A stretch of 56,374 nucleotides of DNA from the NCBI GenBank assembly GCA_026461395.1, contig JAPJNA010000014.1, positions 1-56,374 on the forward strand, read 5' to 3'. Below, in pieces: positions 40,812 to 45,177 of this stretch. The notes beneath the pieces are model-generated. The model saw nothing but the letters and a program-made list of their open reading frames with translations. It did no database searches and had not been told where the DNA came from. Source of the stretch: Chthoniobacterales bacterium (lineage in GTDB: Bacteria > Verrucomicrobiota > Verrucomicrobiia > Chthoniobacterales > UBA6821). The first letter of the stretch is position 1, and each line of letters opens with the position of its first letter. A program made the position numbers and the translations under genes.

Positions 40812-41600
40812 CTAAAAATCGAGTATCTCACCATCCTCGGGAGTAAAAATATCGGAGATGAGAGGCAAGAGTTCCTCCATCTTTCCATGAAGTTCCTCCC
40901 GATCATTTGCCACATCCTCCGAAAGATGAATCAGGCAGAGCGCATTCAGGTTGGCCTCGCGGAGAACCCCTACAAGTTCGTTCTTGCTGACATGGGAGAG
41001 TTCGCAGACGAGGACATTCGCAGGCGTTGACACCAACTCGACAAGGTCGTCAGCAGAGGAAAGATCACCACTGAAGATGGCTCGGAAATCAGCAGCAATG
41101 ATTTCCAATGAATAGGAGTTACACGGAAGCGCGGCAACCGCACCAGGAAGAGAACGGTAGCACCGCTCGAGATGACGATTGGAAAACGGCGTCACGGAGA
41201 TACTCCCATCGGCGAGCATCTGCGACTCCCGATTCTGCCAGGCAATCCAGACGACCGGGAATCCCAACCCCTCCTCCGTGAGGTAGAGGGCATTGATCCA
41301 GGCATGGATCGGGGCAATCATCTCCTCAGGGAGAGCGATCTCGAGAGGCTTCGTTCGTTCCAGGAGCATCGCCCCCTGAAGCAGGGCGGGCAGCCCTCCG
41401 ATGTGATCGACATGGCCGTGAGTGATCAGGACGGCATCGAGGTCCCGAATCAAGGTTCCACGATCGCGCAGAGAATGGACGCACGGCTCACCAGCATCGA
41501 TGAGCAGATGTTTTCCCTCCAGAAGTAGAAGAGAACTGGCAAAGAATCGGTCGGCCTGAGGAAAGCCGGAACCTGTACCGAGAAAGCTGATGGATGGCAT
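40812..41600 (-). CDS. Metallo-beta-lactamase fold hydrolase, RNase Z/ElaC-like
   Basis: A 262-residue protein from ATG 41600 (MPSISFLGTGSGFP), the usual opening of RNase Z-like proteins; 27 upstream codons are probably not translated. The zinc motif is HGHVDH at 61-66, with further ligands likely in IFSGDLSSADD and a C-terminal LIHLSEDV. The tRNA-recognition arm of true RNase Z is not obvious, so it may be a phosphodiesterase or other member rather than a tRNA 3' processing enzyme. Confidence 0.8.
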   Translation of the reverse strand: MPSISFLGTGSGFPQADRFFASSLLLLEGKHLLIDAGEPCVHSLRDRGTLIRDLDAVLITHGHVDHIGGLPALLQGAMLLERTKPLEIALPEEMIAPIHAWINALYLTEEGLGFPVVWIAWQNRESQMLADGSISVTPFSNRHLERCYRSLPGAVAALPCNSYSLEIIAADFRAIFSGDLSSADDLVELVSTPANVLVCELSHVSKNELVGVLREANLNALCLIHLSEDVANDREELHGKMEELLPLISDIFTPEDGEILDF

Positions 41601-41674
41601 GAGTGCAGAAGGTTGCCCGACAAAACTGAAAAGCGAGCGTAAAGGGCACTCTAGCAAAAAAACACTTTTCCTCT

Positions 41675-41703
41675 TTGACACCTACCTCGTCACTCCCTAC
41701 TCT
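41675..41703 (+). promoter_or_regulatory. Candidate sigma-70 promoter for rplM-rpsI
   Basis: TTGACA at 41675-41680 is a perfect -35 box, followed after 17 bases by TACTCT (41698-41703), a weak -10. The predicted start would leave a leader of about 17 bases before the rplM ATG at 41727. Confidence 0.45.
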
Positions 41704-42589: not shown

Positions 42590-42629
42590 TTCGCCCAGTA
42601 CTTTCGGCACGATTTTTGTGCCACCTTTC

Positions 42630-42667
42630 AAGAAGAGCTTCCTGCAAAGGAAGCTCTTCTTCTTTAT
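42630..42667 (+). terminator. Intrinsic terminator of rplM-rpsI
   Basis: AAGAAGAGCTTCC (42630-42642) and GGAAGCTCTTCTT (42649-42661) form a perfect 13-bp stem with a 6-base loop TGCAAA, followed by CTTTAT. It lies 40 bases past the rpsI stop. Confidence 0.88.
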
Positions 42668-42697
42668 AGCTAAGGCCTAGCGGACAGTTCCCGAGAC

Positions 42698-43396
42698 ATG
42701 AAGCATCATCAAAACAACGTGATCCGTGCCGCATGGAAAGAATCCCTGACTGCGCTCCGTGCTAATCTGATCCCCGGACTGTTCCTTCAACTCCTCATGG
42801 CCTTCATGGCCGCAACCTACTTTCTGAGTCCGGACGCCAGAGCCACATTCGAAAAACTGACGCTTCTGCGCTCCCACTGGGGACTACTTTTTTCCTTTAT
42901 CGGCACCTCAGCGGCCTCGGCGGTTCTACCCGAATTTCTGCAACTCCTTCTTCGCAGAAAACTCGGAACAAACTCTAGCACTCTCGGACAACGTCTTCTT
43001 TTCGCAGTTCCTTTCTGGGGACTCATCGGCATGCAGGTCGATCTTTTTTATCGACTCCAATATGCCCTTTTCGGCCCCTCGGACACGGCCTTGGTGATCA
43101 TAAAAAAAGTCCTCGTTGATGCCTTTCTCTACTGCCCTCTTCTTGCAATGCCGCAGGCTGTCTGTGTCTTCCTCTGGAGAGACCACGGCTTCACGCTTCG
43201 CGGATTCAGAGGCCATCACCCAGTGCCTTTCTATGCTTTGAGGATTTTCCCTGTCCTGATGGCGAACTGGATGGTCTGGATTCCGCTTGTCACCATTATT
43301 TACTCGCTGCCTGCGGCACTCGGGGTCCCGTTCTTTATCGTGGCCCAATCGTTCTGGGTCATGGTCTTCACAACCCTCTCCGAGAAGAATAAATAG
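42698..43396 (+). CDS. Multi-pass membrane protein resembling Mpv17/PMP22 family
   Basis: A 232-residue protein with about four to five hydrophobic segments (roughly 24-43, 62-86, 100-118, 136-160 and 183-228). The second half matches the Mpv17/PMP22 pattern as I know it: F-W-G-x-x-x-x-Q-x-D-x-x-Y (106-118), KKVLVDAFLYCPL (136-148, where Mpv17 proteins have K-x-x-x-D-Q-x-x-x-x-P), FPVLMANWMVWIP (184-196, compare P-x-x-x-N-W-x-V-W-P) and a closing FW-x-x-x-x-x-x-LS (219-228). Mpv17 proteins are eukaryotic mitochondrial or peroxisomal membrane channels; bacterial relatives are little known. It sits alone between the rpsI terminator and uppP. The family call is by eye only. Confidence 0.55.
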   Translation: MKHHQNNVIRAAWKESLTALRANLIPGLFLQLLMAFMAATYFLSPDARATFEKLTLLRSHWGLLFSFIGTSAASAVLPEFLQLLLRRKLGTNSSTLGQRLLFAVPFWGLIGMQVDLFYRLQYALFGPSDTALVIIKKVLVDAFLYCPLLAMPQAVCVFLWRDHGFTLRGFRGHHPVPFYALRIFPVLMANWMVWIPLVTIIYSLPAALGVPFFIVAQSFWVMVFTTLSEKNK

Positions 43397-43469: not shown

Positions 43470-44330
43470 ATGGAACCCAACCTTCTTCAGATTCTCTTTC
43501 TCGGCCTCGTTCAGGGAGCAGCCGAACTCCTTCCTGTCTCGAGCTCAGCCCACGTGATTGTGGCTGAAAAGCTTATGGGCTTGGATCCTTCCAGCCCAGC
43601 GATGACCTTCCTTCTTGTGATGCTTCACACCGGAACTATGGTCGCGGTCATCGCTTATTTCTGGAATGCATGGAAGAGGACCTTCTTTGCGAGTGCCACA
43701 AGTCTCCGGGAGACAGCAGTGAATGTTTTTGTGGCTACTGTTGCGACCCTGGTCGTCGGTTTGGCTCTGAAAGTCCTCATCGAGAAGGTCTTCATGCACG
43801 GCACTACCAAGGATGAGATGGAAGATCTCTTCGGGCACCTTCCCCTGGTCGGCGGAGCTATCTTTACTGCAGGAGTGCTGATCCTGGTAGCGGGACATCT
43901 GCGCGGAAGTCAGGGCACCCGCTCACTGGGGATTCTCTCCTCGGCCTGGATCGGCATCTCGCAGGGCTTCTGCCTGCCGTTCCGTGGACTCTCACGATCA
44001 GGCACCACGATCTCCGTGGGTATGCTTCAGGGCATCAACCGCCAACGTGTCGAGGAATTCAGCTTCGCCCTGGCGGTGATCATCACCCCACCCGCAGTGG
44101 CCAAGGAGCTCATGAGACTGCTCAAGTCCCATGCCGAGGCAGCCTCCCCACACCACCTTCTCCATCTGATCGGCCCAGGTCTCATCGGCATGATCGGTGC
44201 CTTTGTGGCGGGCCTGCTCGCTCTCCGGCTTCTCTCCTCCTGGTTAGAGAAAGGTCACTGGGCATGGTTCGGCTATTACTGTGTCGCCTTCTCGGGCTTT
44301 GTTTTCTTTCTCGCCTCCCGCGGATACTAA
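43470..44330 (+). CDS. uppP: Undecaprenyl-diphosphatase (UppP/BacA)
   Basis: A 286-residue integral membrane pyrophosphatase that recycles undecaprenyl diphosphate for peptidoglycan and other surface polymers; overexpression gives bacitracin resistance. The two signature loops are QGAAELLPVSSSAH (15-28; the first acidic residue of the usual E-x-x-x-E motif is replaced by A, as Q-G-x-x-E is retained) and PFRGLSRSGTTIS, the phosphate-binding loop. Eight or so membrane helices fill the remainder. The next gene, a lipoprotein, starts 16 bp downstream. Confidence 0.95.
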   Translation: MEPNLLQILFLGLVQGAAELLPVSSSAHVIVAEKLMGLDPSSPAMTFLLVMLHTGTMVAVIAYFWNAWKRTFFASATSLRETAVNVFVATVATLVVGLALKVLIEKVFMHGTTKDEMEDLFGHLPLVGGAIFTAGVLILVAGHLRGSQGTRSLGILSSAWIGISQGFCLPFRGLSRSGTTISVGMLQGINRQRVEEFSFALAVIITPPAVAKELMRLLKSHAEAASPHHLLHLIGPGLIGMIGAFVAGLLALRLLSSWLEKGHWAWFGYYCVAFSGFVFFLASRGY

Positions 44331-44346
44331 CGATACATCACAACTC

Positions 44347-44745
44347 ATGAAGTTCTTCACCCCTCCCCTCTTATCTCTCTTGTTCGCGGCTCTTTTCTTG
44401 TCTGGCTGCTCGTCAGGGCAGAACAAGGAGACACTGCTGACTGCTGCCGGATTCCGCACGGTCGTTCCGACCACTCCCAAACAGATCGCCCAACTCAAGA
44501 CCCTCCCCCAGCTGAAGGTCATCCCTGTCACCAAGAACGGAAAGACGGCTTTCCTGTTTGCGGATGCCTCTCGCAACACCCTCTTGATCGGAAACCAAAA
44601 GCAGTACACCGCTTATCAGCAGTATGCTCTCCAGTATAAAATGCAGCAGGACAAGGAGGCGACCGCCGCTCTCAATGCCGATGCATCGCAGTGGGGTTGC
44701 TGGGGTGGGATGGATGGACCGTTCTGGGGACCAGGCTTCTATTAA
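44347..44745 (+). CDS. Small lipoprotein of the AAGF/TTP repeat family, copy 1
   Basis: A 132-residue lipoprotein starting at 44347 (MKFFTPPLLS); the lipobox is LFLSGC with C21. The mature part reads TLLTAAGFRTVVPTTPKQ, then a lysine-valine-proline strand, FADASRNTLLIGNQKQY, and ends in Gly/Trp-rich WGCWGGMDGPFWGPGFY. It is a clear paralogue of the next gene. Similar small lipoproteins with an A-A-G-F and Y-A-D-P-type core occur in other Gram-negatives but have no known function. Confidence 0.8.
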   Translation: MKFFTPPLLSLLFAALFLSGCSSGQNKETLLTAAGFRTVVPTTPKQIAQLKTLPQLKVIPVTKNGKTAFLFADASRNTLLIGNQKQYTAYQQYALQYKMQQDKEATAALNADASQWGCWGGMDGPFWGPGFY

Positions 44746-44778
44746 TCGTTACAAATTCCCATCTTAGACCCCACGTTT

Positions 44779-45177
44779 GTGAAGCACTCAGCAATTCTAC
44801 TTCTCTGTATGGCCGGACTGGTGGCCTGCTCGAATCTCAGCGAAAAAAGAACCCTCTTGGCCGCTGCAGGATTCAAGACGATTCCAGCGACGACTCCAGC
44901 TCAGTTAGCAAAGCTCAATTCCCTGAAATCCGGAAAAGTGGTTCCCTTGGTTGGAAAGAATGGAACTGTTTATGTCTTCGCTGATACGGCTCGCAAAGCT
45001 CTTTTGGCGGGGAATGCATCCCAATATGAGGCCTATCGTAAACTTAAGGTAAGTCAGCAGAAAATCGATGAGAAGCTCTTGGATGCCCAAGTCAACATGG
45101 ATGACAACGACTGGAACGCTTGGGGACCATTAAGTGGCTACGGCAACGGGTGGAGTGTGGCTTCCGATCCTCTCTAA
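44779..45177 (+). CDS. Small lipoprotein of the AAGF/TTP repeat family, copy 2
   Basis: A 132-residue paralogue of the preceding gene, 33 bp downstream, with a GTG start at 44779. The lipobox is GLVACS (C17). Matching core: TLLAAAGFKTIPATTPAQLA, KVVPLVGKNG, VFADTARKALLAGNASQYEA. The tail is again Gly/Trp-rich (NDWNAWGPLSGYGNGW). Identical length and layout point to a tandem duplication with considerable divergence. Function unknown; an outer-membrane or periplasmic location is likely. Confidence 0.8.
   Translation: MKHSAILLLCMAGLVACSNLSEKRTLLAAAGFKTIPATTPAQLAKLNSLKSGKVVPLVGKNGTVYVFADTARKALLAGNASQYEAYRKLKVSQQKIDEKLLDAQVNMDDNDWNAWGPLSGYGNGWSVASDPL

Follow-up and report, generated by a model that had tools for sequence, protein, structure and literature searches.

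People who lose MPV17 develop a fatal depletion of mitochondrial DNA; the channel activity of the eukaryotic Mpv17 family has been seen in vitro. The known members are mainly mitochondrial or peroxisomal proteins. An open reading frame on a 56,374-nucleotide contig from a Chthoniobacterales bacterium (the window), whose product is called P0001 here, raises the question of whether a protein of the same kind is present in organisms without organelles and, if so, what it might do there.

The gene in its genus

The P0001 frame starts with the ATG at 42698, ends with the stop codon at 43394-43396, and encodes 232 amino acids (Table 1). It is found as a single-copy gene in 16/16 sampled genomes of the window's genus, with relatives that are 63-91% identical. 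A rough count against close relatives gives a dN/dS of about 0.1-0.2 (that is, non-synonymous changes per site are ~4-10x fewer). Given this genus-wide conservation and the low dN/dS, the frame is a genuine gene under purifying selection. The genome of the window, ~2.0 Mb in size, belongs to the Verrucomicrobiota, and its host is a lake-dwelling verrucomicrobial bacterium (the habitat being judged from the isolate names of the nearest named Spartobacteria contigs, which are mostly from lakes).

Table 1. Features of the P0001 locus, in window coordinates
Feature	Position	Strand	Basis
rplM (L13) and rpsI (S9), upstream of the P0001 gene	41727..42589	+	Pfam; genus-wide synteny
14-bp RNA hairpin between rpsI and the P0001 gene	42630..42661	+	folding
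Gene for P0001 (232 aa), predicted Mpv17-like inner-membrane protein	42698..43396	+	ORF, genus conservation, Pfam sub-threshold PF04117, profile homology
N-terminal extension, residues 1-61 (predicted helices 2-22, 24-43, 45-61)	42698..42880	+	AlphaFold2 helices
Mpv17-homologous region, residues 107-229	43016..43384	+	hhalign P 5.7e-10; plant PMP22 alignment
K137-x3-D141...P147 motif, on MPV17 K88, D92, P98	43106..43138	+	alignments, column mapping
Stretch matched directly by PF04117, residues 183-223	43244..43366	+	12 bits, E 0.23
W191-x2-W194-x-P196 and P205, on Mpv17 N-W/Y-x2-W-P ... V-P	43268..43312	+	alignments, column mapping
uppP/bacA (undecaprenyl-diphosphatase), downstream neighbour	43470..44330	+	Pfam BacA E 2e-51

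Two other features of this part of the window deserve mention in their own right. At 44329-45177 (+) lie genes for two adjacent small predicted lipoproteins, without a Pfam match, whose 39% mutual identity over 114 residues suggests that an undescribed lipoprotein was duplicated in tandem. The gene at 40812-41681 (-) encodes a metallo-beta-lactamase-fold protein (Lactamase_B_2, E 1e-15), possibly RNase Z-like, which scores below threshold against the anti-Pycsar protein Apyc1 (33.5 bits, cutoff 50).

Homology to the Mpv17/PMP22 family

When P0001 alone is compared with Pfam, PF04117 (Mpv17_PMP22) is the sole match, and its score lies below the curated cutoff of 27 bits. The preliminary description, which had proposed an Mpv17/PMP22-like bacterial membrane protein and a check against this profile, is suggested by the single sequence and largely holds once its relatives are included. 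These were collected from whole genomes and genome contigs and aligned as A1 (24 sequences) and A2 (68 sequences). Within A2, 47/68 members match PF04117 (best E 6.9e-7), while each other Pfam family is matched by one member. Loci above the curated cutoff occur in 4/289 genomes of the phylum (one of them, L111, reaches 29.5 bits on a full-protein scan), and the proteins encoded there score against the A1 profile with E-values of 1e-37 to 1e-53. (It should be noted that some bacterial members may already carry a PF04117 annotation in databases, as the Pfam model recognises a few of them above its cutoff.)

The proposal was borne out by profile searches in both directions. At a nominal database size of Z = 200,000 sequences, the bacterial profile finds plant PMP22 at E 7e-7, in an alignment that spans family positions 68-225, followed by zebrafish mpv17 (5.7e-5), yeast Sym1 (0.01) and mouse Mpv17 (0.04); 200 shuffled sequences reach at most 4.7 bits. 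In the reverse search, a profile of four eukaryotic sequences picks out bacterial members by the dozen, with E-values of ~1e-9 to 1e-3, the lowest being 6e-9. Likewise, hhalign joins the 68-sequence bacterial profile to eukaryotic Sym1/Mpv17 over residues 107-229 with a probability of 96.6 and a P of 5.7e-10, and gives a probability of <1% for reversed profiles and for UppP, an unrelated membrane family. Of the manually entered eukaryotic query sequences, two were checked against Pfam, which confirms Sym1 (98 bits) and PMP22 (66 bits) as members, and the residues P98/P104 and N166/N172 are numbered in them as in the literature (PMC8701800).

Taken together, the reciprocal significance and the blank controls make the homology convincing at the level of the family, P0001 by itself being suggestive. 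We are highly confident that the P0001 family is homologous to Mpv17/PXMP2/PMP22 over the core (residues ~63-231), most strongly over 107-229. Because P0001 scores under the curated cutoff, we assign it to a divergent bacterial branch that is homologous with Mpv17/PMP22, and do not count it among the members of PF04117 in the curated sense. In the literature searched, no paper was found that describes a bacterial Mpv17 family or a branch with the N-terminal extension discussed below; the kind of family itself is already known. (An apparent literature match for Mpv17 and Verrucomicrobia proved to be the virus name MpV1 followed by a citation number.) A second set of weak PF04117 matches, up to 24 bits, comes from another membrane family of the phylum (L117, L121, L122, L123, L125); hhalign probabilities of 31 and 0.3 do not tie it convincingly to the P0001 family or to eukaryotic Mpv17.

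Conserved residues

Mpv17/PMP22 proteins (MPV17, MPV17L2, PXMP2, Sym1 and plant PMP22) and the bacterial family are colinear over their last ~120-160 residues and share the motifs K-x3-D-Q...P, W/Y-x2-W-P, P and F-W. The order of Mpv17 motifs that had been read by eye in residues 106-228 is present, and the unsupervised profile alignment places nearly the same stretch on Sym1/Mpv17; in one detail P0001 differs, having A142 where Q stands in Mpv17 (Q93 of MPV17) and in 88% of the family. K137, D141, W194, P196, P205 and P211 are invariant in the 68 sequences, and P147 is conserved in about three quarters of them. In a joint alignment, K137, D141, P147 and W191 fall on MPV17 K88, D92, P98 and Y135, and W194, P196, P205 and W220 fall on W138, P139, P150 and W165. 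At two of these positions, the variants K88E and P98L have been reported from people with MPV17 disease (PMC7379809), and P104L, the yeast equivalent of P98L, is deleterious (PMC8701800).

Other positions differ. The site of the patient variant N166K is not kept in the bacterial family, which has V after the tryptophan in place of MPV17 N166. The N-terminal G-D motif of Mpv17 is P-E in the bacterial proteins, and Mpv17 P-L-x-x-R corresponds to bacterial L-Q-x-P, its arginine being replaced by Q in the family and by G in P0001. Of the C-terminal signature W-x2-W-P ... P-L-x-x-R ... F/V-W-N, the bacterial family keeps W, W, P, P and W. With the K-D pair and the proline retained in cells that have no organelles, the bacterial family allows the core activity to be considered apart from organelle biology, and it provides genes present in single copy that can be deleted and proteins that can be purified.

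Predicted structure

AlphaFold2, run with A2, gives an all-helical model of P0001 (pLDDT 93, pTM 0.87), and a second family member is modelled with the same overall architecture. Six of the helices have the hydrophobicity needed to span a membrane (24-43, 63-84, 96-125, 131-162, 175-203 and 206-231), which points to a probable location in the inner membrane. In this model, the last five would make up the Mpv17-like core, with the extra region lying N-terminal to them. The profile alignment to the eukaryotic proteins begins at family position 68, and most of the extension is without a counterpart in Mpv17. Both are all-helical membrane proteins, but MPV17 has 176 residues and four predicted membrane helices, whereas P0001 has about six and the added N-terminal helix region that Mpv17 lacks.

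A sequence search of the PDB with P0001, profile A1 and Sym1 found no significant relative and no solved Mpv17 structure (VosA, at E 0.18, is noise). Searches of structure libraries with Foldseek and VIA-align likewise gave no significant match, and the best PDB Z, 6.0, is typical of unrelated helical bundles. Rows for a GPCR, GltPh, a complex I subunit and CysZ were rejected as relatives. Proteins of the CysZ/EI24 type (PDB 6d79) are also small helical membrane proteins with hairpins, for which VIA-align gives Z values of 5.0 and 4.4 with 150-179 residues aligned; these values, however, lie within the range of unrelated helical bundles, and the Pfam scans of the family hold no CysZ/EI24 match. 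Among the viral models of BFVD, Foldseek aligns P0001 with a Tetraselmis virus 1 protein annotated as Mpv17/PMP22 (TMt 0.63, rmsd 4.6, prob 0.66), but at E 2.5 and rank 7. It is the only long BFVD alignment of P0001 with a low rmsd, and with the second family member as query it is not among the best 50 matches listed.

Proposed function and alternatives

PXMP2 forms a 1.4 nm pore in bilayers (PMC2662417), and Sym1 and MPV17 also show pore activity there, with a diameter of 1.8 nm for MPV17 (reviewed in PMC8701800). When Sym1 or MPV17 is lost, the metabolism of dNTPs and pyrimidines is disturbed (PMC8701800, PMC10000845). From this published pore activity we infer that P0001, probably as an oligomer, may form a route by which small hydrophilic metabolites cross the inner membrane of the bacterium, in which the conserved K137 and D141, spaced by four residues along a single predicted helix, would be a candidate gate or selectivity element. 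Since a permanently open pore of 1.4-1.8 nm would collapse the bacterial proton gradient, the bacterial protein would be expected to be gated, narrower or a carrier rather than a constitutively open wide pore. Our best guess is that P0001 moves small metabolites, as a gated channel or as a permease. As a whole, an inner-membrane Mpv17 homologue that forms such a pathway would be the best explanation of the locus, and we give it about an even chance.

Somewhat unlikely, in comparison, is that P0001 is an Mpv17 homologue that forms no pore and serves the structure or assembly of membrane complexes, a role that some eukaryotic members have been suggested to play. Mitoribosomes require MPV17L2 for their assembly (PMC4117752), Sym1 is found in a large complex of unknown composition (PMC8701800), and in the window's genus the P0001 gene adjoins rplM and rpsI. 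This ribosomal neighbourhood, however, is confined to the genus, to which the order rplM-rpsI-X-uppP is specific, and a strong hairpin separates rpsI from the P0001 gene. The region around it (42615-42680) folds at -24.4 kcal/mol (z -3.9), and the hairpin, which was not picked up by a terminator scan, is probably the terminator of the ribosomal operon.

The downstream neighbour suggests another role, in which P0001 would work with UppP in the recycling of undecaprenyl phosphate, the lipid carrier of peptidoglycan synthesis, for example as a lipid-carrier flippase. In all loci of the genus uppP is indeed the next gene, on the same strand, starting 73 nt downstream in the window. Such a partnership is nevertheless very unlikely, because tblastn with the window's UppP finds no uppP near the family genes at any of the searched loci outside the genus, and because the sister genus is without a P0001 family gene (0/6 genomes). 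No partner gene is common to the whole family at the loci outside the genus; shared neighbours, a DnaJ-like gene and one adjacent cluster, were seen at 8 related family loci only. The gene neighbours thus give no pointer to a substrate.

Convergence, by which the short W, P, K and D patterns that hydrophobic membrane helices often carry would have produced the likeness to Mpv17, fits the E of 0.23 for P0001 alone and the non-significant Foldseek matches, but it is highly improbable in view of the reciprocal profile significance, motifs colinear over ~120 residues, members above the curated cutoff, and controls that stay blank with another membrane family among them.

Distribution and origin

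The family, as found with A2, is present in 56/278 sampled genomes of the window's phylum, Verrucomicrobiota (~20%). The phylum names here and below were taken from record titles, in which assembled genomes are at times misnamed. In each of the other sampled sets one match is the genome used as centre; there the family is present in 12/246 genomes from the phylum of a Planctomycetota genome (~5%), in 4/198 from that of a Spirochaetales genome (Spirochaetota, ~2%), in 1/141 from that of a Myxococcales genome and in 1/398 from that of Rhodoferax (Pseudomonadota), the centre being the sole match in the last two. The family is thus centred on the Verrucomicrobiota and patchy, with members scattered over several bacterial phyla. 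Viral contigs contained no relative of P0001, and none matched a three-sequence Mpv17 alignment or the pattern N-W-x2-W-P-x2-Q-x2-N-F; plasmids gave no match with the Rhodoferax relative as query.

This distribution, with members in Verrucomicrobiota, Planctomycetota and Spirochaetota and nearly none in the sampled Pseudomonadota, makes the origin of the Mpv17 family testable. That a bacterial homologue would bear on this origin had been anticipated. The simple idea that the family came in with mitochondria finds no support: the near absence from the Pseudomonadota, sampled here as one set, lends none to an origin with the alphaproteobacterial ancestor of mitochondria. In an unrooted tree, a very long branch separates the four eukaryotic proteins from the bacterial ones, which speaks against a recent transfer. 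It is conceivable, though unlikely, that the Mpv17 family arose in bacteria and reached eukaryotes through a bacterial donor of the Verrucomicrobiota/Planctomycetota type and not through the mitochondrial ancestor. If this were true, the function of MPV17 could be worked out in a simple bacterium.

Two observations concern individual members. The Rhodoferax copy (L102, Rhodoferax sp. OV413) is an isolated one, carried on a 920-kb contig of a betaproteobacterial genome; it groups with verrucomicrobial proteins in the tree and is a probable case of horizontal transfer. Two bacterial genomes have tandem pairs of Mpv17-like genes (L119:832-2536 and L147:1492-2970), which may give rise to hetero-oligomers; the proteins of the L119 pair are 27% identical, and their open frames overlap by 14 nt.
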